From a virus, in the IMG/VR virus record IMGVR_UViG_3300030060_005727, positions 1 to 37,846 of that record: a stretch of DNA of 37,846 nucleotides. One strand, given 5' to 3'. The stretch's first letter is position 1; each line of letters begins with the position of its first letter. Below are positions 23,491 to 37,846 of the stretch, one piece after another. Under the pieces are notes generated by a model, which was not told where the DNA came from, made no database searches, and saw nothing but the letters and a program-made list of their open reading frames with translations. The position numbers and the translations under genes are program-made.

Positions 23491-24276
23491 TTACCATATA
23501 CTCCAACCCCCATCTACTACTATGTTTTGTCCTGTTACGTATGATGAAGCTTCAGACGACAGAAATACAGCAGCTCCTGCTACTTCATCTGGTTGTCCTA
23601 CTCTTTTCATTGGAGTTCTTTTACTTAAATCTATTATGTAACCAGGTCTTTCAGGTACACCTGGTGTCTTTTTCGGGAAGTTACCAGGACTAATTGTGTT
23701 GACTCTGATTCCCTTCGACCCGTACTCTGTAGCTAATCTTTTCGTCATTTGTAGGATTCCCCCTTTAGCTACTGAATAAAATATACTACTACTTTTTACT
23801 TCTTGATATAAACTCTGGTCATGTCCTAACAGACCATATATAGAAGAAATATTTATTATTGAACCACTTCCTTGTTTTAACATTTGTGGAATGATAGCTT
23901 GTGTACAGAAAAAACTATGAGATAGAATATTATTGATACCCGAATCCCATTCTTCTTTTGTAATATCTTCTATCGATTTTCTTTCTTCACTAAAAGCATT
24001 ATTAATCAATATATCGATAGTATGTTCGTTTTCTAAAATATCATAGATTCTGTTTTTGACTTGTGTAGGATTTGTGACATCACAACGAATAAATGTCAGG
24101 TTACCATCAAAATCTATTTTTTTAGGTCCTCTTCTACCCATGACAAATACTTTAGCTCCAAACGAAGCTAGAGCTTTCGACATCGATAGACCTAAGTGAC
24201 CATAACCTCCCGTGATTATGGCTACTTTATCTTTTAAATCGAATATGTTTTTATATTGTTGTTGTTTTACCATCAT
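23491..24276 (-). CDS. Short-chain dehydrogenase/reductase
   Basis: This 261-residue classical SDR binds NAD(P)H through TGGYGHLG (22-29), has the NNA structural motif (92-94) and the catalytic S145 (INISSIYG) with Y167-x3-K171. [13 protein letters not shown] follows as usual, and the C-terminus [20 protein letters not shown] is standard. The substrate cannot be read; in sugar islands such enzymes often reduce keto-sugars or their precursors. Two adjacent ATGs (24276, 24273) are possible starts; both overlap the end of the thiamine-enzyme gene by over 20 bases, so the two are coupled. It is the last gene of the enzyme island. Confidence 0.87.
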
Positions 24277-25474
24277 AACAACTTTTTCTTTCTACTATCA
24301 TTACTGGTCCCTTTGCCATCTGAGCCTTTTTATAATCTCGTATAACTTCATCAGGTGTCTTAGGTTCAAATATAGGAAAATCAACCATCTCTCTGAATAC
24401 ATTTGTGAAGTCTTGTGAATGTGTGGGACCAGAATAGAAAGGTCCTCCGTCAGCTACAACCGTTCTTAAAATGACAGGAGCTGTAAATTCACCATGTGAT
24501 AATCTTTCTACGTGATTGATGTGATTTCCTATAGCATCAGCTCCAACTAACATAAAATCATGTCTTTCATAATACACAACAGGTTTGATACCTTCAAATG
24601 ACATACCTAAAGCAAGACTACCCATGAGATTTTCAACAACAGGAGTTTCAAGTTTTTTACGTTCAGGTACACCTTCTAGTGTTCCCATAGCATTTCCGAA
24701 ATCACCTCCTACATTATAACCAATAAACATTGTGTTGTCTTTTCCTAATTCTGTCATGGCTTGAGTTACAGCTTCTTTATACGATAAATTTTGTGTTTTG
24801 ATTTCATTAAACTCAGGAAAAGTTTCTTGAGGAAATCTAGGAAAATATTCGTCGTCTGTTCTCATTATTTTTTTCGTTTCTGATAAATCACAGAAATCTT
24901 TTGTACGAGCATGAGGAAAAGGTAACTTGTAGTGATATCTCATAACACAAGACTCAGGCCATTTTTGTATCTTACTTGTTCCCCATCTTGTTTTTTTATT
25001 AGCTATGATTGATTTATCGTTATCTTCTATAACAAACTTACAAGGTAAATCCCAACCCTGAACATATCTGACAGCTTCAGCAAAGTTTCCCGTATCTTCA
25101 GCTCCATCACCTACAAAACACCAAACTTTTTGTTTTGATTTTTTTCGTTTCAAAGCCCAAGCTATTCCTGCGGCTATACCCGGAACACCTCCTACGATAG
25201 CTGAAGCAAAAAAGTTTCGTTCTCTGTCATACATAAACATACTTCGACCATCTAATATCTTTTGTTCTATCTCGTCAGCAGGTAAACCATGTAGAAGAGC
25301 ATGATAATGATTTCTATGTGTAACTAAAACATAATCATCTTTTTCTATATGTGTGAATATATTCAATAGATGATTTTCATTCCCACCACTCAAATGAAAC
25401 AAAAATGGAAGTTTATTGTTATTGTAATGATTTATTATTTTGTTTTCGAAATTTATCAAATCTTGTTTATTCAT
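24251..25474 (-). CDS. Fused alpha/beta thiamine-diphosphate dehydrogenase E1-like enzyme
   Basis: This 407-residue protein joins two halves that are usually separate. Residues 40-200 match E1-alpha: [36 protein letters not shown], and the thiamine-diphosphate motif GDGAEDTGN...N152. Residues 228-395 match the pyrimidine-binding E1-beta domain: [39 protein letters not shown] (E282 the likely activating Glu) and [17 protein letters not shown]. The C-terminal domain of E1-beta/transketolase is absent, making it unusually compact. The likely chemistry is decarboxylation or ketol transfer on a 2-oxo acid or ketose, perhaps to build a branched or extended sugar; the substrate is unknown. GGAG precedes ATG 25474, 1 base after the oxygenase stop. 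Confidence 0.83.
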
Positions 25475-25475
25475 T

Positions 25476-26099
25476 TTATCTCCATGTAGGTCCAGTTACC
25501 CAACCAACTATCGAATACCTTGTTCCCCGTGTAATCGGAGTAACTGAGTGTCTTAAGAATGACGGAAACACTAATAAGGTTCCTTTTTGTCTTACCGTTT
25601 CAATATCAGGTCTACCAGAACCTTCACAATCAGTACGATTTAAAATTAAGTTACAATCATCGTACTCACTAGAATCTGATAATTGTAGTGAGAATGATAT
25701 TTTTCTATGTAAATCTACTTCTTCACCCTCAGGTGATTGAGCTTTGTCACCTGCAAGATACATAACGTCTTGATGTTCAGTATAGAAACCTCCTGAGTTT
25801 GTATCGTATTGCATAAATTGTATATATTCTAAATTAGTGATATCAATATTATTGAACCATTTTTTATTAGCCGCATCAACCGCTGATATTAATTTAGCAA
25901 ATATATCTCTCATTTCCTCGATATAGATATTACAAAGTTTAACTTGTCTAATGTTTGTATCTTTACGACCATCTCTACCACCTCCAACTTTACCTTCTTC
26001 TAAACCATCTTTCAAACCTTTGTTAAGACATTTTAAAGTCAATATATCACATTCTTCAGGTGTGAAATAATTTTCAAAATACGACCACATACTTTTCAT
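25476..26099 (-). CDS. 2-oxoglutarate/Fe(II) dioxygenase, PKHD/P4H type
   Basis: The 207-residue product has the iron ligands H109-x-D111 (FYTEHQDV) and H184 (FLRHSVTPI), plus R194 (TRGTRYSIVGW) to hold 2-oxoglutarate. The N-terminus YFENYFTPEECDIL and the middle HRKISFSLQLSDSSEYDDC are typical of prolyl-hydroxylase-like enzymes. T4-like marine phages often carry one or more such genes. It could hydroxylate a protein (for example the collagen-like fibre repeats) or a small sugar; which one is open. The 5' end lies 7 bases after the alcohol dehydrogenase stop. Confidence 0.87.
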   Translation of the reverse strand: MKSMWSYFENYFTPEECDILTLKCLNKGLKDGLEEGKVGGGRDGRKDTNIRQVKLCNIYIEEMRDIFAKLISAVDAANKKWFNNIDITNLEYIQFMQYDTNSGGFYTEHQDVMYLAGDKAQSPEGEEVDLHRKISFSLQLSDSSEYDDCNLILNRTDCEGSGRPDIETVRQKGTLLVFPSFLRHSVTPITRGTRYSIVGWVTGPTWR

Positions 26100-26106
26100 A
26101 ATAAAC

Positions 26107-27150
26107 CTACATTTCTATTATACATCGACCAGATAATCCTTGTCCTGAACGGACTATATCGAGAGCGTCATTCACTTGATATAAATCTAATCGATTTGTT
26201 ATTAATTTGTCGAGATTGAGTTTTCCTCGTTTATAGAGACTCAAATACCTGTTTATATCGACTGAAGGGTTTGTGAGTCCTCCATCACTATCCATCAAAA
26301 CTTTACCTTTAAAATGTTGTAATACTGAATGTAAAGTTAAATGTTCATTAGGTTTCGGTTGTCCTACCATTATAGTCTTACCACCTCCTGTTGTCATGTC
26401 ACAGGCTTTCTCAATAAGTTCAGTATGACCTGTTGTATCTATAAATACATCAACTCCTGAACTACCTACAATCTTTTTTAAACTTTCACGGACATCCTCT
26501 TGACTTGTATTTATCGTATGTGTTGCTCCAAACTCTCGAGCTAGTTCTAATTTATGGTCATGAATATCTATAGCTATAATAGGATTACCAGACACAAGAG
26601 ATGCTCCTTGTATTACATTGAGACCTACACCCCCCGAACCGAAAACAGCTACTGATTGACCTATTTTTAATTTAGCTTCATTATTGATTATACCTAAACC
26701 AGTTGTAACACTACAACCCATCAAGGCGGCTACATCATATGGAATATCATCATCTATCTTTGTTACTCTGTTTTCAGAAACAATAGCCATCTCATTGAAT
26801 GTAGTGACTAATCCCCCTCCTACCATTTTACCACTACTCTCTGAAACATATTTAGGAAACTCTGATTCTATCCCGTCTCCTTTTCTCCAGTGCATCACTA
26901 CTCTATCACCAGGACTTACCGTTGTTACTCCTTCACCAACTTCGAGTACTTTAGCACCCCCTTCATGTCCGAGTAAACAAGGTAAAAATTCTTTTTTAAT
27001 TTTCACACCTGAAATATGACCTAGTTGAGCTCCACATATACCACTACTTCGTACTTCAACTAAAACTTGTCCAACACTACATTTATGTTGTAAGTAAAGT
27101 TTTTCAACAACTAAAGGTTCATTAAAATTATAAATTACAGCTGCTTTCAT
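26107..27150 (-). CDS. Zinc-dependent alcohol dehydrogenase (MDR family)
   Basis: The start is taken as ATG 27150 (MKAAVIYNFNEPLVVEKLYL), which overlaps the kinase stop as ATGA; a longer frame reaching 27201 would lie inside the kinase gene. The 347-residue product has catalytic-zinc ligands C39 (SSGICGAQLG), GHE at 61-63 and C146 (LMGCSVTTGLG), and a Rossmann motif GSGGVG at 171-176. The lobe with four structural-zinc cysteines is missing (MHWRKGDGIESEFPKYV occupies that place), so only one zinc is expected. It is close to the class III/benzyl alcohol dehydrogenase branch. It likely oxidises or reduces an alcohol/aldehyde in the sugar pathway. Confidence 0.88.
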   Translation of the reverse strand: MKAAVIYNFNEPLVVEKLYLQHKCSVGQVLVEVRSSGICGAQLGHISGVKIKKEFLPCLLGHEGGAKVLEVGEGVTTVSPGDRVVMHWRKGDGIESEFPKYVSESSGKMVGGGLVTTFNEMAIVSENRVTKIDDDIPYDVAALMGCSVTTGLGIINNEAKLKIGQSVAVFGSGGVGLNVIQGASLVSGNPIIAIDIHDHKLELAREFGATHTINTSQEDVRESLKKIVGSSGVDVFIDTTGHTELIEKACDMTTGGGKTIMVGQPKPNEHLTLHSVLQHFKGKVLMDSDGGLTNPSVDINRYLSLYKRGKLNLDKLITNRLDLYQVNDALDIVRSGQGLSGRCIIEM

Positions 27151-27905
27151 TTCTGAGTGACTACCTCCACACCGTGTTTTTGAATGACTTCTACAGAACA
27201 TTCTTGTGCGAACTTTATTGAAGTATCTGGATTATTATTCTTTAAATAGTGTATTGTAAAGGCAGCTAAAAACGTATCACCTGCTCCTGAAACATCTCTT
27301 ACTTCTACTTTTTTGAAAACAGGATAAGTTTTATTTTGAAATCTACAACCTTTACCTCCTAATGTAACTATTAGTTTTGAATCTATACCAGGAAAATTAT
27401 TGTAATAAAGATTATCTAGTAAATGTTTTGTTTTTTCATACTCATATTCATTTAGTTTTATAAAATCAGCTTTCACACACCAGTCATCTAATAATTTATT
27501 AGTTTGTAGGAATGTAGGAGTGTCTGTCTCTAAAATCAGTTTTAAATCTCCAACATTTAGAAATCCCTTATCATAATCAGATATTATTATCCCATCGTAT
27601 CCTTTAAGTTTTTCTTCGTCATGTTCATATTTGTTTTCTACGTAATCGTGTTTATCGACTCTTATTATCATTTGATGAGTTCTATCATCAACGTAACGTA
27701 TTTTTTCTATCGTATTTTTATTTGTGATAATATCACAATCATAACCTAAAGAACGTACGTTAGCTGCTACATTACCTGCCATACCCATATTAGATTTACT
27801 TCTTGTGGGTTGAAAGACAGGAACTGGAGCTTCTGGACACATACGTTCACAAGTACCATATTCGTATGTATCTTTACAACTATCACCTATAACTAATATT
27901 TTCAT
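27147..27905 (-). CDS. PfkB-family sugar kinase, HldE kinase-domain type
   Basis: The 252-residue product resembles the N-terminal kinase domain of HldE/RfaE, which phosphorylates D-glycero-D-manno-heptose 7-phosphate: VIGDSCKDTYEYGTCERMCP, PEAPVPVF, MGMAGNVAANVRSLGYDC and the PfkB signature DVSGAGD at 204-210 with catalytic D210. HldE of Gram-negatives continues into a nucleotidyltransferase domain; here the protein ends after the kinase domain (QKHGVEVVTQK) and is some 60 residues shorter than that domain usually is. Activation of the sugar to an NDP form would need a host enzyme. It overlaps the epimerase gene by 4 bases (ATGA) and the alcohol dehydrogenase by 4. Confidence 0.85.
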   Translation of the reverse strand: MKILVIGDSCKDTYEYGTCERMCPEAPVPVFQPTRSKSNMGMAGNVAANVRSLGYDCDIITNKNTIEKIRYVDDRTHQMIIRVDKHDYVENKYEHDEEKLKGYDGIIISDYDKGFLNVGDLKLILETDTPTFLQTNKLLDDWCVKADFIKLNEYEYEKTKHLLDNLYYNNFPGIDSKLIVTLGGKGCRFQNKTYPVFKKVEVRDVSGAGDTFLAAFTIHYLKNNNPDTSIKFAQECSVEVIQKHGVEVVTQK

Positions 27906-28696
27906 TTTAAAAAATCCTTATAATCTTTAATACCTGATTCTAAATTGTATTCAGGTTCCCAACCTGGCATCCATTTACTTTTATCAGATTGAGTATGATA
28001 TTGATACCAATCAGGTATTTCATACTCTTGTTTATATTCGTAGGGTATTTCCATTAAATCTAAAACATCTTCAAATAATCTAGCTTGTCCACTACCAACT
28101 TCGTAAACACCTGGTTCTACATTATTAAATAGTGGATAAATTGTTGCCCTTACAATATCTTTTATGTAAACAAAATCTCTTTTTGGTTTTTTAGGAAAAA
28201 GTTTAAATTGACCGAGTTTATAAGCCTGATATGCAACTGAAGCCATTTTTCCTTTTCTTTCTTCACCTGGACCATATACGTTAAAGTATCTGAGAGCTAT
28301 GAAATCCATATCAAGAGCTTTTCCATAATCTTCAGCTAATAATTTAGACCATCCATACACATTACTAGGTATACCATCAACACCATCATTAGCTGCTGAT
28401 GATGAATAAATTACTTTTTTATTATATTTTTTAGCTAAATCAAATAACTTTTTACTGAAAATATAATTAGTCATCATCATTGAAGACATATTTTGGTCAC
28501 TTGTGTCTGAGTTAGCTCCTATATGTAGGATAACATCACAATATTTAACCCTAATAGCTAATTCGTTTTCCCAATCAAGTTTTTCAGTAAAATCACGTTC
28601 AATCTTATATATTACATGAATACTATGAACATCTGTTAGTGTTTTCATTACATTACGACCTATAAAACCATCATAACCTGTTAAAAGAACTCTCAT
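27902..28696 (-). CDS. hldD: HldD-like NAD(P)-dependent sugar epimerase
   Basis: This 264-residue extended SDR closely follows HldD, the ADP-glyceromanno-heptose 6-epimerase: TGYDGFIG (6-13) for NAD(P), HIGANSDTSDQN (58-69), NYIFSKKLFDLA, SSSAA (98-102), YGWSK with Y114 and K118, and YFNVYGPGEERKGKMASVA, ending in RDFVYIKDIV. The matches GAxSDT and GxxxERKGxMASV are specific for HldD rather than for GalE or RmlB. It is shorter than E. coli HldD (310), mainly in the C-terminal half. Expected product is the L,D-heptose form of a nucleotide heptose, though the substrate may be a modified sugar. Confidence 0.86.
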   Translation of the reverse strand: MRVLLTGYDGFIGRNVMKTLTDVHSIHVIYKIERDFTEKLDWENELAIRVKYCDVILHIGANSDTSDQNMSSMMMTNYIFSKKLFDLAKKYNKKVIYSSSAANDGVDGIPSNVYGWSKLLAEDYGKALDMDFIALRYFNVYGPGEERKGKMASVAYQAYKLGQFKLFPKKPKRDFVYIKDIVRATIYPLFNNVEPGVYEVGSGQARLFEDVLDLMEIPYEYKQEYEIPDWYQYHTQSDKSKWMPGWEPEYNLESGIKDYKDFLK

Positions 28697-28699
28697 TTA

Positions 28700-29260
28700 T
28701 TACTCCGTATCAAAGAAAAATACTTGTGTTAATCGACCATTTTTTAAATTATCACCAAAATAATCTAAACTTTTATGAAATAATTGTCCATCATAAAGAA
28801 CTAATTTATTATATTCATTCGAAACTTTTTGGACTAATTCCCATCTAAAATACTCTTGACCTTGTGATTCTAATTCTTTTGATTTTTCTTTATCTTGTCT
28901 AGTATTTGTTATTCCACTTTCTCTGTGTTTGTAAAAACCTGTACCTGATGACGGAGGAGCGTCAGGGGTCAAATAACATAAACCAGCCCATGTGTTATTG
29001 GTATCTGCATGAATCCAGGATTTCTCCCAAGCATATGTTATTTGAAATGACCCGTTGACGTCCTCTGAAAAATTACTTATTTTACCTCCGTAAGGAAAAA
29101 TTATATCCTGTATTACATTTTGTATTGATGAATTGATGTAAGGTTCAGTTCTTATCCCAGGATAGTTTCCTTCTTTCGAAAAAGGGAGTGATAAAGCATC
29201 ACGTCTTACATCATCCGGATTTGTATAAAAATTGTTTATTGTAATAATATCTAGGTTCAT
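28700..29260 (-). CDS. 2-oxoglutarate/Fe(II) oxygenase of the DUF6445-like type
   Basis: The 186-residue product starts at ATG 29260 (overlapping the upstream stop as ATGA); a TTG 12 bases earlier is less likely. Iron ligands H84-x-D86 lie in SWIHADTNNTWAGLCYLTPD, with H162 (GQLFHKSLDYF) and R176 (NGRLTQVFFF). SSGTGFYKHRESG is typical of this phage-rich oxygenase family. It differs from the other oxygenase in the island, so two separate hydroxylations or oxidations are implied. Substrate unknown. Its neighbours are the carbamoyltransferase partner gene and the HldD-like epimerase. Confidence 0.82.
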   Translation of the reverse strand: MNLDIITINNFYTNPDDVRRDALSLPFSKEGNYPGIRTEPYINSSIQNVIQDIIFPYGGKISNFSEDVNGSFQITYAWEKSWIHADTNNTWAGLCYLTPDAPPSSGTGFYKHRESGITNTRQDKEKSKELESQGQEYFRWELVQKVSNEYNKLVLYDGQLFHKSLDYFGDNLKNGRLTQVFFFDTE

Positions 29261-30045
29261 ACTATTTTCCAATCTGAAAGTCCTAATATATCTTTAGCTA
29301 TTTCCTCACTTGTTTGATTTAGATAATTACGAGGATTCTTAAAAGAAGCAAATAAATTCGTTGTAGGGTACCTGTTTCCTATTTGTTCAGGTAAATTAGC
29401 CTTATCCATAATATCATAATGTATAGCATGACCAGATAAATTAGCTCCATATTCATCAAAGGCAAAACGACCTATATCGTAACTCGCATAAATATGTCCA
29501 GCTAAATTTTCATTCCAAGAAGCCGTAACTACATAAGGTATAACTCCATCTTGATACTTATCAATTATATAATCTGACTTAGATTGTATAGTTAAATTAC
29601 AATCATGTTTTTTCTGAAACTCTAATGCCACTTGTGCCCATATATCAGCTTCTTCATCATCGCTAGTGTGTAATTTTACTACAACGTTTTCTCCTATCAG
29701 ATTAATTCGTTTTGAAAATATAGTAGAGAATCCGTAATCTGGATTGAACTCTTTCACTTCAACAAGCCAGTCTATATAAAAACTAGCAAAAGCACGTTGA
29801 TAGTGTTGTAGTCCCTTAGGTTGAGCAGGAATGACACCAGATGTTATCCAGTGTATTTCTTGTGATTCAGTTATGTGATTAAACAATACTAAATATTGTT
29901 TTCTACAATCAAAACCTTTATGTTTGTATGTCGTTGATTTTTGACCATGAATTGTCAATGTGGGTCCTTTATAAAATGACAAATTAATATAAGGAGGAAC
30001 ACTCCTTAAAAAACCCCCATCTAATCGTTTTATTTTATTGTTCAT
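29257..30045 (-). CDS. Carbamoyltransferase partner protein B (unknown family)
   Basis: This 262-residue protein is a paralogue of the product of 31123..31863. Both carry a long central domain with Y-rich strands, the shared motifs YDIGRF, LHT(S)D and a C-terminal EE/DE-(I/V)-AKDILGLSDW. I do not recognise a catalytic motif. The ATG at 30045 overlaps the truncated carbamoyltransferase by 11 bases, and each copy follows directly after a carbamoyltransferase, so the two probably act together (partner, acceptor-binding subunit or second enzyme). The paralogues have diverged strongly outside those motifs. No membrane segment or signal peptide is visible. Confidence 0.65.
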   Translation of the reverse strand: MNNKIKRLDGGFLRSVPPYINLSFYKGPTLTIHGQKSTTYKHKGFDCRKQYLVLFNHITESQEIHWITSGVIPAQPKGLQHYQRAFASFYIDWLVEVKEFNPDYGFSTIFSKRINLIGENVVVKLHTSDDEEADIWAQVALEFQKKHDCNLTIQSKSDYIIDKYQDGVIPYVVTASWNENLAGHIYASYDIGRFAFDEYGANLSGHAIHYDIMDKANLPEQIGNRYPTTNLFASFKNPRNYLNQTSEEIAKDILGLSDWKIV

Positions 30046-31123
30046 CAGACCATCCTATTATTGAATCAATTTCTTCTTGTGAATATTTTGTACCCAAAAA
30101 CACATCATTTAATTTTTTCGTTTTCCATTCTCCTAACTCGACTGCTTTTTTTAGAGTAGCTCCTAAAGCAAGTCCTGCATCAGTCATAGCAGGATAAACG
30201 TACATTTCATCCACCCAATCAAGTTCATTAAGTTTTTGATTTAACTTGACATTTGAAAATACACCACCGGCTACTGCTACTTTTGTGTATTCGGGATAAA
30301 CTTTATGTAAATGATTTAAATATTCTTTCATCCTATTTTCTAAAAATAATTGAACATTATAAGCTAAGTTCGCTGCTTTTTGTTCATCATCTCTCGTACC
30401 TCGTATCGGTATGACATTTATATCCTCTAAGTATTCAAATACTAGATGTATACCATAATCAGAAGTAGAAAGTCCTGCAGGAGTAAATGTCATTGTATGT
30501 TCATCGTATTGACATAAAAAATTAAGAGCATTATATATTGTTTCATCATAAACACCATGTCCTGCTAGACCCGTAACTTTACCCTCATCTTTATGTATTC
30601 TCCAACCTAACCAACGTGTTGTGTAAGCGTACATACAAGGTATTGTTGAACTTTTACTAAAAAACATAGTACTTAAATGTTTCATCGTATTGTCTTCTGC
30701 TAAATATAATTTACCATAAGTGTTTTCATGTCCGTATAAATGACCTAATCCTCCCCCATCGTATGAAATTACTAATGTAGGTTCGTTAAATCCTGATGTA
30801 TAGTAAGCTCCATAACAATGAGCATCATGATGATTAACCATGTAAACTTTTTCTTTAGGAACATCATGTTTATCGTTCCAAAATGAAGATACAGCACTTA
30901 CAGGAGTAGCTGTACAAACGTAATCTGCCTCATTCATTTTCATGTTAAATTCGTTTTCGATTCTTTGAATTGATAAATCAGGTAATGCATTTAAATCATC
31001 ACAAACTTTTATACGTTTAGGTCTTTCTTCTTGTATAGCAGATACTATTTTTCCATCTTTAAGTAAAACAGCTCCTGCATCATGACAAGTATTTCCCCCA
31101 TAAACTCCAAATAAACTACTCAT
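30035..31123 (-). CDS. Carbamoyltransferase lacking the C-terminal domain
   Basis: The 362-residue product begins MSSLFGVYGGNTCHDAGAVL at ATG 31123, which overlaps the partner-A stop as TAATG; a TTG start 15 bases earlier coincides with the Shine-Dalgarno region and is rejected. It aligns throughout with residues 1-351 of the full-length copy: QEERPKRIKV, NHHDAHCYGAYYTSG with the metal-binding HHxxH at 98-102, DEGKVTGLAGHG and AGGVFSNVKLNQKLNELDW. It then ends (SIIGWSDEQ) exactly where the second domain starts, so GPRALGARS and the NTSFN block are absent. In TobZ-type enzymes the missing domain makes the carbamoyl-adenylate, so this copy might accept it from the full-length one, or be a regulator or binding protein. 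Confidence 0.85.
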   Translation of the reverse strand: MSSLFGVYGGNTCHDAGAVLLKDGKIVSAIQEERPKRIKVCDDLNALPDLSIQRIENEFNMKMNEADYVCTATPVSAVSSFWNDKHDVPKEKVYMVNHHDAHCYGAYYTSGFNEPTLVISYDGGGLGHLYGHENTYGKLYLAEDNTMKHLSTMFFSKSSTIPCMYAYTTRWLGWRIHKDEGKVTGLAGHGVYDETIYNALNFLCQYDEHTMTFTPAGLSTSDYGIHLVFEYLEDINVIPIRGTRDDEQKAANLAYNVQLFLENRMKEYLNHLHKVYPEYTKVAVAGGVFSNVKLNQKLNELDWVDEMYVYPAMTDAGLALGATLKKAVELGEWKTKKLNDVFLGTKYSQEEIDSIIGWSDEQ

Positions 31124-31863
31124 TAAAATAACTCCCAATCTGACAATCCTAAAATATCTTTAGCAACATCTTCATCACTAAGATTGTTCGGGTCTCTAGG
31201 ATTGAGTCCTGAATAAACCATATTAGTTTCGACAAATCGTTTACCTGCTGGATACGCTTCAGGATACGGATTCGGTATATCAATTTGTTCTTGATTATCA
31301 TCTAACACACTTAGAATATGTCCTGCATCTCTAGGTTGTTCAAATCTTCCTATATCATAAGTTGAATAAACATTCATCATTTCATCTTCCATATCTAAAA
31401 AAGAAATACCAAATTCACGTACAGCTCTTCGTTGTAACTCTTTATTACTCACTGCAAAATTAAGTTGACAATGATGTAGATTTTTATAATCAAAACATAC
31501 TTTTATCCAAGTACACATTTGTTCCCAATCATCGGTGTGTAACCTTATTTGAACGTCTTTATTATAATCACTATATTGATGATAATCAACAACTTGAAAT
31601 CCGTATTCAGGACTCCATGTGCTAGTTGTTAAGACCCAAGGTACGTAAAATGAAAACATTTGAGAGCCGTACCAACCAGGAGGGTTTATACTACGACTCA
31701 TCATAGTATTCATTTGATTTCTTTTCTTATCTAATATACTAAAATCTATTTTTAAAAACATATCATATGGTGTTTCAGACGTACTACCATGAATATCTAT
31801 TTTAGGTGTAGAATTAAAAGTATAAATAAAGTAAAGATTACGAACTGACAGATTACTCAACAT
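31123..31863 (-). CDS. Carbamoyltransferase partner protein A (unknown family)
   Basis: The 246-residue product starts at ATG 31863 (MLSNLSVRNLYFIYTF), inside the end of the full-length carbamoyltransferase gene. It shares with partner B the segments YDIGRF, LHTDDWEQ and EDVAKDILGLSDW at the C-terminus. The N-terminal half is aromatic-rich (PPGWYGSQMFSFYVPWVLTT). No catalytic motif is recognisable, so its role is unknown; the fixed order behind each carbamoyltransferase argues for a joint function. It is coupled on both sides by short overlaps. A different TTG start 9 bases upstream is possible. Confidence 0.65.
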   Translation of the reverse strand: MLSNLSVRNLYFIYTFNSTPKIDIHGSTSETPYDMFLKIDFSILDKKRNQMNTMMSRSINPPGWYGSQMFSFYVPWVLTTSTWSPEYGFQVVDYHQYSDYNKDVQIRLHTDDWEQMCTWIKVCFDYKNLHHCQLNFAVSNKELQRRAVREFGISFLDMEDEMMNVYSTYDIGRFEQPRDAGHILSVLDDNQEQIDIPNPYPEAYPAGKRFVETNMVYSGLNPRDPNNLSDEDVAKDILGLSDWELF

Positions 31864-33487
31864 AGTAAACAAAATCCTCCATTACTAAATAATCTACAAC
31901 TCCGTCCACTAAGTGTTTGATAGCCTGGTCAGGTCCATCTATTATAGGTTCTCCATGTACATTGAATGATGTATTAAGAAGAACCGGTATGTTTGAAAGT
32001 TTTTCATATTCAACAAGTACTTCGTAAAAAGGATTGTAATCGAATACCAATTGAGGTCTAGCACTCTTATCAACTTTATGAACAACAGCAGGTATTTTAT
32101 CTATCCATTCTTCTCTTGTATCGTAACACATTGTCATAAATTCAGCTGTGTAATGTGATTTATTATTAGTGACAAATATTTCATTTGCTTTTTCTCCTAG
32201 AACTATCGGAGCAAAAGGCATTACTTCATTTCTTCCTAATCTCTTATTTAATTTTTCGTGAGTTTCAGCATCTGTCGGTCTTACTAATACACTTCTCGCT
32301 CCTAATGCTCTAGGACCAAATTCAAATCTTCCTTTGAACCAACCGATAATGTTCCCATCATTAAGATAACTAGCAACTGATTTCATATCAGCCTTGACTC
32401 GTTTAATTTTTTTATTATCCATTGTAACTCCTTGTATTATATCATCAATATAATCTTGACTAAATTTACTACCATAAAATAGATGTTTAAATCTTTTAGA
32501 TTTCCATTCTCCTAATTCAACTGCTTTAGCTAAAACACTTCCTAAAGCATTACCTGCATCATTCATAGCAGGATATATATAAGTCTCGTCAATCCAATCT
32601 AATTCATTTATTCTCTGATTCAATTTAACATTAGCAAAAACACCTCCTGCTAAAGCTACTTTTTTATATTCAGGATATAACTCATTCATGTGATTTAAAT
32701 ATTCAATAAATTTATTTTCTAAAAAATATTGCATATTAAATGCTAAATCAGCTCTTGACTTTTCATCATCTAAGTTTAAAACTTTGTTAAAAATAAGACT
32801 ATTTAAAACATGATTTATTCCTGTAGCACTCTCAGCTTGTGAATTAGGTACAAACTTTTTGATACTTTTATCATACCAACAAATCGTTTCAAATGACTTA
32901 TATATTTCTTCGTTATACTCTCCGTGTCCTGCTAGACCCGTAACTTTACCTTCATCTTTATGAACTATCCAACCTAAATATCTAGTAACAGCAGCATACA
33001 TACAAGGGATACTTGCTGTATAACCCATCGGAAAAGAATTTATCAATGACATTTTACCATTTTCTGCTAAGTATGTTCTACCAAAAGTAGTCTTGTAACC
33101 TTTTGATTTTGAAAGACCTCCAGCATCATAAGAAGCTACAAGTGTTTTTTCATTGAAACCTGATGTATAATAAGCTCCATAACAATGTGACTCATGATGA
33201 TTGACAATAAATATTTTCTCTTTAGGTACAGAATGTTCATACAAGAATTTTGAATCTATTCCCATCGGACTTGCTGTACAAATCCAATCAACATCTTTTA
33301 ATTTAATACCAAATTCTTTTTCGATTCTATGTAAACTTAATATAGGACTTGCATATTGGTCTTTATAAACTTTAACTCGTCTCGGTCTTTCTTCTTGAAT
33401 GACTGATTTAATTTTTCCGTCAACCATGTAAACAGAACAAGCATCGTGAGCACAAGACCCTCCGTATATTCCTATGATTTTACTCAC
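31853..33487 (-). CDS. Full-length carbamoyltransferase (NodU/CmcH/TobZ family)
   Basis: This 544-residue enzyme has both domains. The N-terminal Kae1-like part carries NHHESHCYGAYYTSG with HHxxH at 97-101 for iron, DEGKVTGLAGHGEY and AGGVFANVKLNQ; the C-terminal part carries FEFGPRALGARSVL at 388-401 and VLLNTSFNVHGEPIID at 502-517. Such enzymes use carbamoyl phosphate and ATP to carbamoylate a sugar hydroxyl of an antibiotic, Nod factor or surface glycan. The start is GTG 33487 with AAGGA 6 bases upstream, overlapping the radical-SAM stop as GTGA. In this setting the acceptor may be a heptose or a derivative of it. Confidence 0.92.
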   Translation of the reverse strand: MSKIIGIYGGSCAHDACSVYMVDGKIKSVIQEERPRRVKVYKDQYASPILSLHRIEKEFGIKLKDVDWICTASPMGIDSKFLYEHSVPKEKIFIVNHHESHCYGAYYTSGFNEKTLVASYDAGGLSKSKGYKTTFGRTYLAENGKMSLINSFPMGYTASIPCMYAAVTRYLGWIVHKDEGKVTGLAGHGEYNEEIYKSFETICWYDKSIKKFVPNSQAESATGINHVLNSLIFNKVLNLDDEKSRADLAFNMQYFLENKFIEYLNHMNELYPEYKKVALAGGVFANVKLNQRINELDWIDETYIYPAMNDAGNALGSVLAKAVELGEWKSKRFKHLFYGSKFSQDYIDDIIQGVTMDNKKIKRVKADMKSVASYLNDGNIIGWFKGRFEFGPRALGARSVLVRPTDAETHEKLNKRLGRNEVMPFAPIVLGEKANEIFVTNNKSHYTAEFMTMCYDTREEWIDKIPAVVHKVDKSARPQLVFDYNPFYEVLVEYEKLSNIPVLLNTSFNVHGEPIIDGPDQAIKHLVDGVVDYLVMEDFVYYVE

Positions 33488-34638
33488 GACATTCCTTCAT
33501 CTTGTATTGCTTGCATATCAGTACAAAGTTTACATATAAAATCAGGAGGACTACTTATATAACCATGTCCCATGTACATAAATTCTTTATACTCTTCACT
33601 ATCAAATAACTCTGATATTGTTTGAGTCGATAAGTTACCTAAAATATTTCTTTTCTGCCAATCATTACAACAAACCGTTACACTTCCATCATATAGAACA
33701 TGCAGACCTTTACCATCAAAGAATCTAGCACAAGTAAACTCATTGTCAGGTCCTATCTCTCTTACTTGTTTATTACCTCTCCACTCATCAAACAATCTTA
33801 AATCACCAGCTCTATTTTGAAATAACATAGTGTTCCAACTATATTGACCGTAACCATCGAATAAACTTGATAAATGTTTTCGATAATCTTCAGGTTCATA
33901 AAACCATAAATCAATATTTTCTTTAGTGTAGGAGACTTGTTCCTCCATACTGAATACAGAACTACCATGAGGGTCAGCTCCGTGATATCCCATTATATCA
34001 ATAGGAATAATATTATCTCTTTTGTTATTGTATTCGAGAAGAGACTGAATATTTTTTACTACATCTTCATATTGATATCTACTACCCATGATTTCTTCCC
34101 ACGATTCTTTATCAGTACCTCCGAAATGTACAAGTATACCATAATGTATTCTACCATCATTGAAATCTTCATATTTTAACATCAAATCAATTAATTTTTG
34201 AGAACGTTCTGGTGTTAATAAATTAGCATTTGTAGGAAAATTAATTCTAGTATTAGGTAGTTGTTGATAAAAGTATTCCATTCTTTCTAAAAACTTAGGG
34301 TCGGCTGTCGGTTCATTTCCGTTTTGATAACTATAATGACCTCCAAATCCAGGATAAGTATTTTTAATATCTAAAACTATTTTTTCGTAAAGTTCATCCT
34401 TCATATATCCTGGGTTCATTGTTGTCCATGCATAAGGATAAGGACAATACACACAATTCGAAGTACATACTGAGGTTGTCATGATTGAAACGTATTTTAA
34501 AGGTTCTAATTCTAGTTTTGAATTTTTTATAAAATTTTTCATAGCGTTATTAGCTTTATTTTTTTTCAAAACAGAATCAATACGTTTTTGTAGATTCATA
34601 TCATTTTTTCTAGTATCTTTCAATTTAGACCCTTCCAT
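33484..34638 (-). CDS. Radical-SAM enzyme with SPASM-like C-terminus
   Basis: The 384-residue product has the radical-SAM cluster motif C58-x3-C62-x2-C65 (TTSVCTSNCVYCPYPYAW) that binds a [4Fe-4S] and S-adenosylmethionine. The C-terminus has FTCARFFDGKGLHVLYDGS, VTVCCNDWQKRNILGNL, SELFDSEEYKEF and a final ICKLC, a SPASM-type pattern that binds extra clusters. Enzymes of this type modify peptides, alter sugars (epimerisation, dehydration) or carry out dehydrogenation; the substrate is not readable. The first ATG 34638 overlaps the glycosyltransferase by 19 bases; an ATG at 34599 is a possible alternative start. It probably acts in the same pathway as the glycosyltransferase. Confidence 0.88.
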   Translation of the reverse strand: MEGSKLKDTRKNDMNLQKRIDSVLKKNKANNAMKNFIKNSKLELEPLKYVSIMTTSVCTSNCVYCPYPYAWTTMNPGYMKDELYEKIVLDIKNTYPGFGGHYSYQNGNEPTADPKFLERMEYFYQQLPNTRINFPTNANLLTPERSQKLIDLMLKYEDFNDGRIHYGILVHFGGTDKESWEEIMGSRYQYEDVVKNIQSLLEYNNKRDNIIPIDIMGYHGADPHGSSVFSMEEQVSYTKENIDLWFYEPEDYRKHLSSLFDGYGQYSWNTMLFQNRAGDLRLFDEWRGNKQVREIGPDNEFTCARFFDGKGLHVLYDGSVTVCCNDWQKRNILGNLSTQTISELFDSEEYKEFMYMGHGYISSPPDFICKLCTDMQAIQDEGMS

Positions 34639-37076
34639 AAATTATTCTCATCCATATACTCTTTAACTTTATTTATTACCATCTTAGGTGTAATAGTTGT
34701 ACTACATTCAAATTCTCTTTCAGTATTAAAATGTCGAGGACAAAACATCCACATATCTCTTTTAAAAGGATACTCCAAACAACAATCAGTACAAATATTT
34801 TCATTGTATTCATGCTTTTTAGACCTTGAAATAATTTTATCAGCAGGTATCAGTAGTTCAGGGGGTTGAAGATTTACAATACTAATAGTAGGTGTTCCAA
34901 TCATCCAAGATAACCAACTCATACCTGAATTAAGTCCTATAAAAAAATCAGCATATTTTAAATCACTTATTCTACTTTCAAGGTTATATTGTCTTCCAGT
35001 CTTATCTATCACACCGTCGAATTTATGTTCGTTCCACATAATTCTTTTATCCCATTCTCCTCCTCCATAACCATATTCTTCATCTCGATTTAAAACGAGT
35101 ACTTTGTAACCAATTGAATTAAGATAATAAATTAACAATTGCCAACCTAATCCGTAATCTTTTGATTTTCCTCTTTCATAACCATAGTTCCAAAATTTAG
35201 CTTGAGCAGTTGACATTGTATTAATACATACATATCTCTCTTGAATATTTCTTTTGTATTTTTTAAGATTTATAATCGGTTTTTCAATTTCAAAATCTAT
35301 TCCAAGAATATTAGTTGTAGTTTGACCTAAAGGTACGGTTTGATAATTAACTGGACTATGATTAAAATTAAAAGTTTTATCGTTTCTTCGTTCTTCAGTT
35401 TGACTATCGTGACTCAAACCTTCCCATGACAACACATATTTTATATGTGCTACACTACTAAGTGAATTAGTAATAAACTCTATTTCAGGATAATTATCTT
35501 TCCAAAGTTTCGAGTAATCTTCTGTAGTCCAACATATAACTTTACACTCATTGATTTTTCTAAATCGTTCTATCTGAGGAAACCAAGCTATATTATCACC
35601 TAAAGAACCAGAGTCTAATACAACTAATACGGTTTTATCTTTTAAATCTAATCTATAATCAAATACCAATTCTTTAGAACTATTATCAGTAATTTCAACT
35701 TTCCAAGGTGTATACCAAGTTCTTTCAGTCGACACATAATGACCAGGAGTAATTTTAGTTTTATATTTTAGACTATTATCTGTTGTATCAGTCACAATTA
35801 TATCATAAGTATCATGTTCACCATTTACGTAAGGTTTCATTCTAACTTTGAAACCATCTTTATAATTTTCATGTGTGATTTTTTGTAAATGTTTACCATC
35901 ACATTGTATTAAATCTCGTATTTGTTTTTTTCTATCTACATTGTAATCTATACTAGATAAAATATCATATGCTTTTTTAGCACAAACTTTCCAATCAAAT
36001 TGTTCTCGTATTGTTTTTGATTCTTTTTTTGCCTTTGATAAAAAACTTTCATAATTTGATTTAACAAGTCTCATCTTAATAGATAAATCATTAAAATCAG
36101 GTTCGTAATAATTTCCGTTTCCTGTATCAGTTAATTTCTCACCCAATACTTTGACAGGAATACCTTTATCTTTTGCAAATTCAAGTTGACCACTACAATC
36201 TGAATATATAGAAGGTATACCGCATGCCATAGCTTCGATTAAAGGTAGATTCCAACCCTCACTTCTCGAACATGAGAGAAAAACATTACTGGTTTGTAAC
36301 TTATTAATATAATCTTTTATATCTAAATGAGAATATGTTTTAATTCTAAAATCTTCTATGTTTAATTGTTTTAAAATATCTGTAGTAAATATATTATTTT
36401 CATCAAAAGTATTATCTGTCAATAATATTAAATCAACAGGTTCAGTTGAGTCAAACGTTTTCCTAAAAGTTTCAACTATTTGTTGTGTCGATTTTCTGTA
36501 TTCCCATCTACCAACCACTATAAAAGAAAATCTATTATTTATGACAGATTTTGTAGATGGTTTAAATAATTCAGAATTGACACCTTCATTCACAACTTTT
36601 ATTTTAGATTCCTCTAATCCTTGTGAAATGTAACATTGTTTTTGCCAGTTTGTAGCTACCCAGATTTGATGAAATTTTTGTAGTGTCTTCTTAAACGTTT
36701 TTTCTAATTTTGTAGATTCTGTAACACAATATGCTATATTGTAACCCAAGTAATTTTGACTAAAATAATGATGTGATTCTGATACTAAAACTATGTTGAT
36801 GTCTTGTTTGAAGTTTTTATCGTAGGAATATATAGACCATTCTTGTGGTTCATTTTCATCAGTTAGTGTTGTTTGTTCTGATAACATAGATTTAAGGTCA
36901 TCCGTGATATAAGGCTCATCGTCATGAGGTGTATCACTTATACCTTCCCATGTTTGACCAACACTAAAGTTTCGTATTTTTAAAGGTGTTAATTTGTTTA
37001 ATGCCGTCAAAAACTCACGAGCATGAACATTATAACCAGCATTACCAATAACACTTGTATGGACTTTTATTCTCAT
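34620..37076 (-). CDS. Two-domain glycosyltransferase: GT4 fused to an autotransporter-heptosyltransferase-like domain
   Basis: This 818-residue protein joins two enzymes. Residues 1-375 are a GT-B retaining transferase (GT4 type): VNEGVNSELFKP, FIVVGRWEYRKSTQQIVETF and SRSEGWNLPLIEAMACGIPS, with the E-x7-E type donor site. Residues about 450-818 resemble the BAHT family (TibC, Aah): TWYTPWKVEI, VLDSGSLGDNIAWFPQIERF, STAQAKFWNYG, GLNSGMSWLSWMIGTPTISI and a four-cysteine finger C762-x2-C765, C779, C791. In TibC this finger binds iron and the enzyme O-heptosylates proteins from ADP-heptose. A beta-rich linker (400-450) joins the halves. It directly follows the tail-fibre gene, and HldE- and HldD-like genes lie downstream. 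A recurring promoter-like element lies just upstream. Confidence 0.88.
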   Translation of the reverse strand: MRIKVHTSVIGNAGYNVHAREFLTALNKLTPLKIRNFSVGQTWEGISDTPHDDEPYITDDLKSMLSEQTTLTDENEPQEWSIYSYDKNFKQDINIVLVSESHHYFSQNYLGYNIAYCVTESTKLEKTFKKTLQKFHQIWVATNWQKQCYISQGLEESKIKVVNEGVNSELFKPSTKSVINNRFSFIVVGRWEYRKSTQQIVETFRKTFDSTEPVDLILLTDNTFDENNIFTTDILKQLNIEDFRIKTYSHLDIKDYINKLQTSNVFLSCSRSEGWNLPLIEAMACGIPSIYSDCSGQLEFAKDKGIPVKVLGEKLTDTGNGNYYEPDFNDLSIKMRLVKSNYESFLSKAKKESKTIREQFDWKVCAKKAYDILSSIDYNVDRKKQIRDLIQCDGKHLQKITHENYKDGFKVRMKPYVNGEHDTYDIIVTDTTDNSLKYKTKITPGHYVSTERTWYTPWKVEITDNSSKELVFDYRLDLKDKTVLVVLDSGSLGDNIAWFPQIERFRKINECKVICWTTEDYSKLWKDNYPEIEFITNSLSSVAHIKYVLSWEGLSHDSQTEERRNDKTFNFNHSPVNYQTVPLGQTTTNILGIDFEIEKPIINLKKYKRNIQERYVCINTMSTAQAKFWNYGYERGKSKDYGLGWQLLIYYLNSIGYKVLVLNRDEEYGYGGGEWDKRIMWNEHKFDGVIDKTGRQYNLESRISDLKYADFFIGLNSGMSWLSWMIGTPTISIVNLQPPELLIPADKIISRSKKHEYNENICTDCCLEYPFKRDMWMFCPRHFNTEREFECSTTITPKMVINKVKEYMDENNLWKGLN

Positions 37077-37131: not shown

Positions 37132-37846
37132 TTATCCTTCGAGAGTCACTATCCTTGATTTGAGAGCATACACTCTTTTCGTAAGGTCAATCAAAGCTTG
37201 AGTTGATAATGTAGCTAAACCAGCATAATCAAGTCCGTAATAAGAACCTGAGACAGGAGCTCCTGCTTTTACACTTGTATCTGCTCTGACTAAATCTTCA
37301 TCTTCTTGTGTTCTATGAACTAATTTATAAATAAAATCACCTGAACCTGTTATATCTCTTAAATCTTGAGCTATTAAACCTGTGTGGATATTCCAGTCCA
37401 TAGAGGCACTAATTGATTGTTCGATTTTAGCACTATCAGTTGTTACCGTTCCATCATCAAGAGAACGTGTAGGTAAGTTATCATAAGTGAATGTATGAAG
37501 TAAGTTGTCTATTTTTTTAATCTCATCTAAGGCACTTTGACTTAATGAGGCTTCGAGGGGTTGTATATTTGTTTTTAATCTTGAATCAGAAACCGTCGAT
37601 GGAACGGTTGCTCCATTATGATACCACCAAAACAATCCTGTTCCACTACTATTCTGTAAATGAAGTGGGACTTGAGGAGATTTACTGATAAATCCACCAC
37701 CAGCAGCATTGATTGACATAGCATAGTTGTAGTTACCTGCTGATGAAAGTTCTTTCTGACCAGACCAAGTTAATGTTTCATTGTCATCCCAACGAGTATC
37801 ACCAGCACCACCTCCTGGACCTGCTGGTCCAGCGCCACCTTGAGGA
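37132..37846 (-). CDS. Tail fibre/spike C-terminus with collagen-like repeats and S74 self-cleaving chaperone (5' part outside window)
   Basis: The frame is open to the window edge and ends at TAA 37132, giving 238 visible residues. The most N-terminal part, PQGGAGPAGPGGGAG, is a collagen-like Gly-X-Y stretch, followed by a WSGQKEL / MSINAAGGGFISKSPQVPLH segment and the S74 domain. VSDSRLKTN (around 37600-37570) holds the Ser-x4-Lys pair by which endosialidase-type chaperones cut themselves off after trimer folding. The end (ALIDLTKRVYALKSRIVTLE) is the usual terminal coiled coil. The protein probably forms the host-recognition fibre. An ATG at 37719 is internal and is not the start. Its gene is directly upstream of the glycosyltransferase. 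Confidence 0.88.
   Translation of the reverse strand, partial: PQGGAGPAGPGGGAGDTRWDDNETLTWSGQKELSSAGNYNYAMSINAAGGGFISKSPQVPLHLQNSSGTGLFWWYHNGATVPSTVSDSRLKTNIQPLEASLSQSALDEIKKIDNLLHTFTYDNLPTRSLDDGTVTTDSAKIEQSISASMDWNIHTGLIAQDLRDITGSGDFIYKLVHRTQEDEDLVRADTSVKAGAPVSGSYYGLDYAGLATLSTQALIDLTKRVYALKSRIVTLEG

Follow-up and report, generated by a model that had tools for sequence, protein, structure and literature searches.

A GT4–BAHT glycosyltransferase fusion encoded beside the tail-fibre gene of a T4-like phage: a candidate enzyme for fibre glycosylation

The DNA analysed here (the window) is the whole of IMG/VR record IMGVR_UViG_3300030060_005727, 37,846 bases of a T4-like phage. At one end lies a ribonucleotide-reductase-like gene and at the other a truncated tail-fibre gene, with recombinase, tail tube and sheath genes between them; all of the relevant genes are on the minus strand. 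Judged by its UvsX-like recombinase, the phage is closest among named phages to Microcystis phage Mel-JY01 (53%). The gene of interest, at 34620..37076 (−), is an open reading frame with an ATG start that encodes an 818-residue protein in which a GT4 glycosyltransferase is joined to a domain of the BAHT family, to which the heptosyltransferases TibC and Aah belong. As a preliminary description of this DNA had stated, the gene lies beside a fibre gene: the adjoining tail-fibre gene (37132..37845, (−); Peptidase_S74 and tail-fibre PHROG matches) retains its 3' end, which encodes the tail of a Gly-rich collagen-like stretch followed by an S74 intramolecular chaperone, and is cut off where the record ends.

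Pfam, TIGR04414, the match to TibC and the predicted fold all bear out a complete GT4 transferase fused to a TibC-type heptosyltransferase. The GT4 domain (residues 1-380; 35937..37076, (−)) matches Glycos_transf_1 (E=8e-11) and GT4-conflict (E=1e-8) in Pfam (PF00534/PF20706, with 42.2 bits against a cut-off of 26.4 for PF00534) as well as PHROG 2170, and its EX7E motif is intact (E273-E281). The BAHT domain (about residues 403-818; 34620..35870, (−)) comprises a β-barrel, GT-B catalytic lobes and a putative iron finger. Over residues 423-806 it scored 230.6 bits with TIGR04414 (hepto_Aah_TibC), exceeding the curated NCBI cut-off of 200, and it matched the TibC structures 4rb4 (E=3.7e-46) and 4rap (E=1.9e-45). 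An AlphaFold model of the fusion was built from 27 relatives (mean predicted local distance difference test score, pLDDT, of 80). In Foldseek the model gave template-modelling (TM) scores of 0.82-0.88 to TibC, normalised by TibC length, and its N-terminal half matched GT4 structures. Structure prediction, which had been named beforehand as able to overturn the assignment, thus returned the TibC fold of barrel plus GT-B core.

The motifs lie where the preliminary description had put them (GSLGD at 490-494, STAQAKFWN at 622, GLNSGMSWLSW at 714 and cysteines at 762, 765, 779 and 791). Alignment places D494 (35595..35597, (−)) opposite Asp-110, the catalytic base of TibC (PMC4358343), and T623, K627, R702 and W721 opposite Thr-226, Lys-230, Arg-286 and Trp-305, which hold ADP-heptose in TibC (PMC4358343); F789 aligns with TibC F368. 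The four cysteines C762/C765/C779/C791 (34704..34793, (−)) correspond to TibC C339/342/358/370 and predict an iron finger. Their conservation was the second point named beforehand on which the assignment could have failed: they are present in all 44 dereplicated phage homologues, in which the catalytic Asp and the Trp-305 equivalent are likewise invariant. We regard the assignment to BAHT as firm, a chance motif match being ruled out by the family, structure and residue tests, and from its predicted fold and conserved residues the domain is expected to be catalytically intact. The fusion is not an assembly or frame artefact, since the reading frame is kept in two related records, L004 (95% over the BAHT half) and L005 (81%).

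Relatives are numerous. A profile scan of IMG/VR found them in at least 579 viral contigs, 80 of which were fetched; dereplication left 64 clusters. Searches of phage records with tblastn retrieved a 1226-residue protein of Mel-JY01, a 738-residue GT4–BAHT protein of a 735-kb uncultured phage and a stand-alone BAHT of a 636-kb phage. All 16 other phage records tested exceeded the TIGR04414 cut-off (223-352 bits), and PHROGs gave no family for the BAHT domain when two stand-alone phage BAHTs were tried. Restriction of the fusion to the present phage is ruled out. The preliminary description knew of no described phage enzyme of this architecture next to a fibre gene, which stands insofar as no paper describing one was found, but the fusion is not unique, as GT4–BAHT recurs in Mel-JY01, the 735-kb phage and several other lineages. 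The open-access literature searched, outside which most subscription journals fall, yielded no description of a phage BAHT, of heptosylated fibres or of Mel-JY01. The Mel-JY01 protein (PP395634, named methyltransferase FkbM; recorded host Microcystis elabens) has 41% identity over 91% of the query and shares the GT4 N-terminal half, the BAHT C-terminal half and an upstream collagen-like gene. It differs in having its halves separated by an additional segment that is annotated as a methyltransferase, and the Mel-JY01 record has no heptose kinase or epimerase match.

The usual form in phages is two separate, overlapping genes. Among the 27 dereplicated stand-alone phage BAHTs having upstream sequence, a GT4 gene lies directly upstream in 20, with an overlap of 4 or 20 bp, which argues that the window fusion is a joined operonic pair. 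The fused proteins are of several types (GT4-BAHT, FkbM-GT4-BAHT and GT4-methyltransferase-BAHT-methyltransferase-GT2) and involve different GT4s and inserted methyltransferases. In a quick tree the TibC-like bacterial BAHTs form one well-supported group, outside which fall nearly all phage BAHTs together with some bacterial ones and some binned into metagenome-assembled genomes (MAGs); some MAG contigs of the set (L198, L200) look viral themselves. The window BAHT is on a long branch, and the fused state requires a minimum of 7 label changes. A chance union of two independent enzymes, with the GT4 half acting on another acceptor than the BAHT half, would fit the prevalence of separate proteins and the differing subfamilies of the fused GT4s. 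Repeated fusion and the near-constant operonic overlap of GT4 and BAHT genes point instead to one pathway, and we consider a chance joining improbable.

The association with fibres extends beyond the window. In the T4-like relatives L009, L030 and L054 the gene order is fibre, large glycosyltransferase, GT4, BAHT, sheath, and the BAHT modules of the window and L005 occupy the same fibre-to-sheath slot. In L005 the fibre genes are intact, and each of its three S74-type fibres contains 49-50 Gly-X-Y triplets, with Thr at 18-24 of the Y positions; the orthologue of the window fibre has 49 triplets and Thr in 19 Y positions. In Mel-JY01 a collagen-like frame of 1016 residues lies upstream of the fusion. 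A collagen-like open reading frame was found near BAHT in 23 of 26 dereplicated loci that have 5 kb or more of upstream sequence versus 4 of 28 T4-like tail-tube control loci (p=6e-8), two control records having later turned out to carry BAHT. When the frame had to be upstream and on the same strand the counts were 19/26 and 4/28 (p=2e-5), and random viral loci contained none in 208 kb. Thr and Ser dominate the collagen-like repeats near BAHT, and in a 138-kb record (G006) the listed repeat matches all lie within about 6.5 kb of BAHT.

Glycosyltransferases of T4-like phages have so far been read as modifiers of the host surface, the published reading for those in pelagimyophage host-recognition clusters (PMC7029224). 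The present enzymes could likewise modify lipopolysaccharide (LPS), exopolysaccharide or a host adhesin and so block superinfection, and the kinase, epimerase and carbamoyltransferase of the operon (below) have LPS-core homologues. Against this, BAHT is a family of protein O-glycosyltransferases, the gene sits inside a fibre-to-sheath structural block, the association with collagen-like fibres is strong and bacterial relatives (L195, L205) also stand beside apparently exported Gly-Ser/Thr repeat proteins. Host-surface modification is accordingly an explanation to which we give little weight.

Two carbamoyltransferase genes lie in the same operon, one for a full-length NodU-type enzyme (31853..33487, (−); Carbam_trans_C E=1e-51, Carbam_trans_N E=3e-29) and one for the N-terminal (Kae1-like) domain only (30035..31138, (−); Carbam_trans_N E=6e-28). 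Each is directly followed by a gene for a half-BAHT protein, giving pairs in tandem (29257-31872). The first half-BAHT (31123..31872, (−); TIGR04414 E=2e-5) has the barrel and N-lobe. The second (29257..30045, (−)) matches TIGR04414 with E=7e-8 (hhalign 98%, E=6e-14), and its top Foldseek hits are TibC, a match that rests on a low-confidence model (pLDDT 56). Both half-BAHTs are barrel and N-lobe alone; the donor lobe is absent and the catalytic Asp is replaced by Glu or Gln. They are not a general feature, being restricted to the window, L004, L005 and L210; other records hold partial TIGR04414 matches. Elsewhere a NodU-type carbamoyltransferase gene is directly upstream of the stand-alone BAHT in 2 of the 27 cases (L034, L044), and BAHT is fused to a carbamoyltransferase either directly (L216 2675-5725, followed by a sulfotransferase-like gene) or with an FkbM methyltransferase between (L215 9680-13675). 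Because they are adjacent to BAHT or fused with it, the carbamoyltransferases appear to belong to the same pathway. These fusions, together with the retention of barrel and N-lobe alone, suggest that the half-BAHTs are acceptor-recognition subunits for the carbamoyltransferases. N-domain-only carbamoyltransferases adjoin full-length copies both in the window (30035-31138) and in L215 (8387-9676), and may need these copies to provide the activated carbamoyl group.

Further along the operon are two heptose-type genes. One encodes an ADP-glyceromanno-heptose 6-epimerase-like (HldD-like) protein (27902..28696, (−)) that scored 167 bits with TIGR02197 versus 40 bits with GalE, the best-scoring family outside the heptose group, and has the YxxxK motif. 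The other encodes a shortened heptose-7-phosphate kinase-like protein of HldA/HldE-N type (27147..27905, (−)), with 121 bits for TIGR02198 versus 41 for ribokinase, again the best outside the heptose families, and the GAGD motif present. The carbamoyltransferases, epimerase and kinase are kept in the same order in L004, L005 and L210. The same cluster contains genes for an alcohol dehydrogenase (ADH), a 2-oxoglutarate (2OG)-Fe(II) oxygenase, a thiamine-dependent E1/transketolase-like enzyme and a short-chain dehydrogenase/reductase (SDR) at 23491..27201 (−), in the order found in L210.

Taken together, gene neighbourhood and conserved residues make O-heptosylation of the phage's own fibre, followed by extension, the best-supported reading. 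We think it probable that BAHT adds a heptose or heptose-like sugar to Ser/Thr of the fibre, that GT4 extends it and that the carbamoyltransferases cap the product; transfer from ADP-heptose to protein is deduced from the donor-site residues and the neighbouring heptose-type genes. Under this scheme the BAHT half would bind newly made fibre during late gene expression and, with ADP-heptose as the donor, attach heptose or a sugar derived from it to fibre Ser/Thr, the collagen-like Gly-X-Thr/Ser segment being the prime candidate acceptor. The fused GT4 half would then put a second sugar onto the first, and the NodU-type carbamoyltransferases would carbamoylate the glycan, guided by half-BAHTs that have kept the acceptor-binding barrel and lost the donor lobe. 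The phage kinase-like and epimerase-like proteins could bias the host ADP-heptose supply, and the sugar coat might serve to stabilise the fibre, to shield it or to tune adsorption.

Several observations weigh against this scheme. Pro-300, which sets the D,D-heptose selectivity of TibC (PMC4358343), is Asn (N716) in the window protein and Gly in 38 of the 44 phage homologues, and thus the exact sugar may differ from that of TibC. The hydrophobic tip (F265/V266) of the β-hairpin thumb, which TibC needs to form its active dodecamer (PMC4358343), is kept neither in the window nor in the phage homologues. The tip also varies among bacterial TIGR04414 members. Its loss means that a ring-shaped dodecamer of TibC type is unsupported and cannot be assumed, whereas BAHT family membership is unaffected. 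Both heptose-type proteins fall below the curated cut-offs of their families (274.6 for TIGR02197 and 345 for TIGR02198), and most BAHT phage records are without kinase and epimerase, only a few others carrying either. The adenylyltransferase family TIGR02199 gave no match in 16 BAHT phage records, GmhA/GmhB not having been searched for. A phage-supplied HldC was thus not found in these 16, and the 'cytidylyltransferase-like' gene of Mel-JY01 is no candidate, being a borderline CTP_transf_like match in a record with no TIGR02199 match. Either host ADP-heptose supply or a changed donor would then be needed. On the acceptor side, the collagen contrast is weaker when at least 8 kb upstream is required in both sets (16/22 vs 3/15, p=0.003). 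BAHT stands beside other fibre genes that have no GTS repeats in G027 and G033, and GTS repeats occur in G023-G025, records that have no BAHT. Given exceptions in both directions, a fibre is the probable acceptor, in many cases a collagen-like one but not in all.

The donor observations could be accommodated by an enzyme of the same class acting on a virion acceptor with a donor other than ADP-heptose, the heptose-type genes making a modified sugar or serving another product. Besides the missing heptose genes and the Gly or Asn in place of Pro/Ser at position 300, the long branch of the window BAHT and the ability of the E1, SDR and ADH genes of the cluster to remodel a sugar fit such a donor. 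It is harder to reconcile with the retention in the window of the equivalents of TibC Thr-226, Lys-230, Arg-286 and Trp-305, and with an operon that has its own heptose-specific kinase-like and epimerase-like genes, and we consider a non-heptose donor rather unlikely.

With TibC/Aah (TIGR04414; PDB 4RAP, 4RB4) the window protein shares the fold, the N-terminal barrel, the catalytic Asp, the ADP-heptose-contact residues and the four-cysteine iron-finger motif, but it is phage-encoded, fused to GT4, devoid of the hydrophobic thumb tip and has Asn at the stereoselectivity position. The partner of TibC/Aah is an autotransporter with strand-loop-strand repeats, whereas the neighbour here is a tail-fibre gene, and the scans made found no autotransporter in the window. 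The protein is thus a member of the enzyme family rather than part of an autotransporter glycosylation system. Collagen-like proteins are glycosylated elsewhere: BclA of Bacillus spores (PMC8968730) and mimivirus collagen also carry sugar on Gly-X-Y repeats, although by unrelated transferases and with other sugars, the mimivirus acceptor being hydroxylysine. For the capping step the likeness is to WapO, the 7-O-carbamoyltransferase that acts on LPS heptose in Pseudomonas (PMC8005017), the difference being that its substrate is the LPS core with no link to protein glycosylation.

More tentatively, the recurrence of these modules may reflect a widespread, undescribed phage system in which BAHT O-heptosylates Ser/Thr of collagen-like fibres, the sugar is extended by GT4 and receives its cap from methyltransferases, carbamoyltransferases or sulfotransferase-like enzymes, with half-BAHTs acting here as acceptor-recognition subunits for the carbamoyltransferases. 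If phages do decorate their own fibres, many unassigned phage genes would gain a function, and fibre chemistry would count as one element of host recognition and phage stability. Collagen-like repeats would be a new class of acceptor for an enzyme family so far known only in connection with autotransporters, and the natural multi-enzyme fusions could be used for protein glycan engineering.

Other features of the locus and of its relatives were noted. A gene for a radical SAM/SPASM protein (33484..34638, (−); Pfam), conserved in L004 and L005, shares 19 bp with the fusion gene in a translational overlap, and a DUF6445 family protein (Pfam) is encoded at 28700..29272 (−). After the heptose-type genes, window positions 23491-25474 encode the E1/transketolase-like enzyme, which is single-chain, and the SDR. 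L210 retains both genes and L004 the beginning of the E1-like gene; their substrate is perhaps a modified heptose. The collagen-like structural frame of Mel-JY01 (L001 2-3052 (+), >1000 residues) has been misannotated: the record gives hypothetical proteins on the minus strand in its place. In the bacterial MAGs L195 (4512-4940) and L205 (4528-4950) an apparently exported Gly-Ser/Thr repeat protein is encoded near a stand-alone BAHT, on the opposite strand, and is a possible non-autotransporter acceptor.

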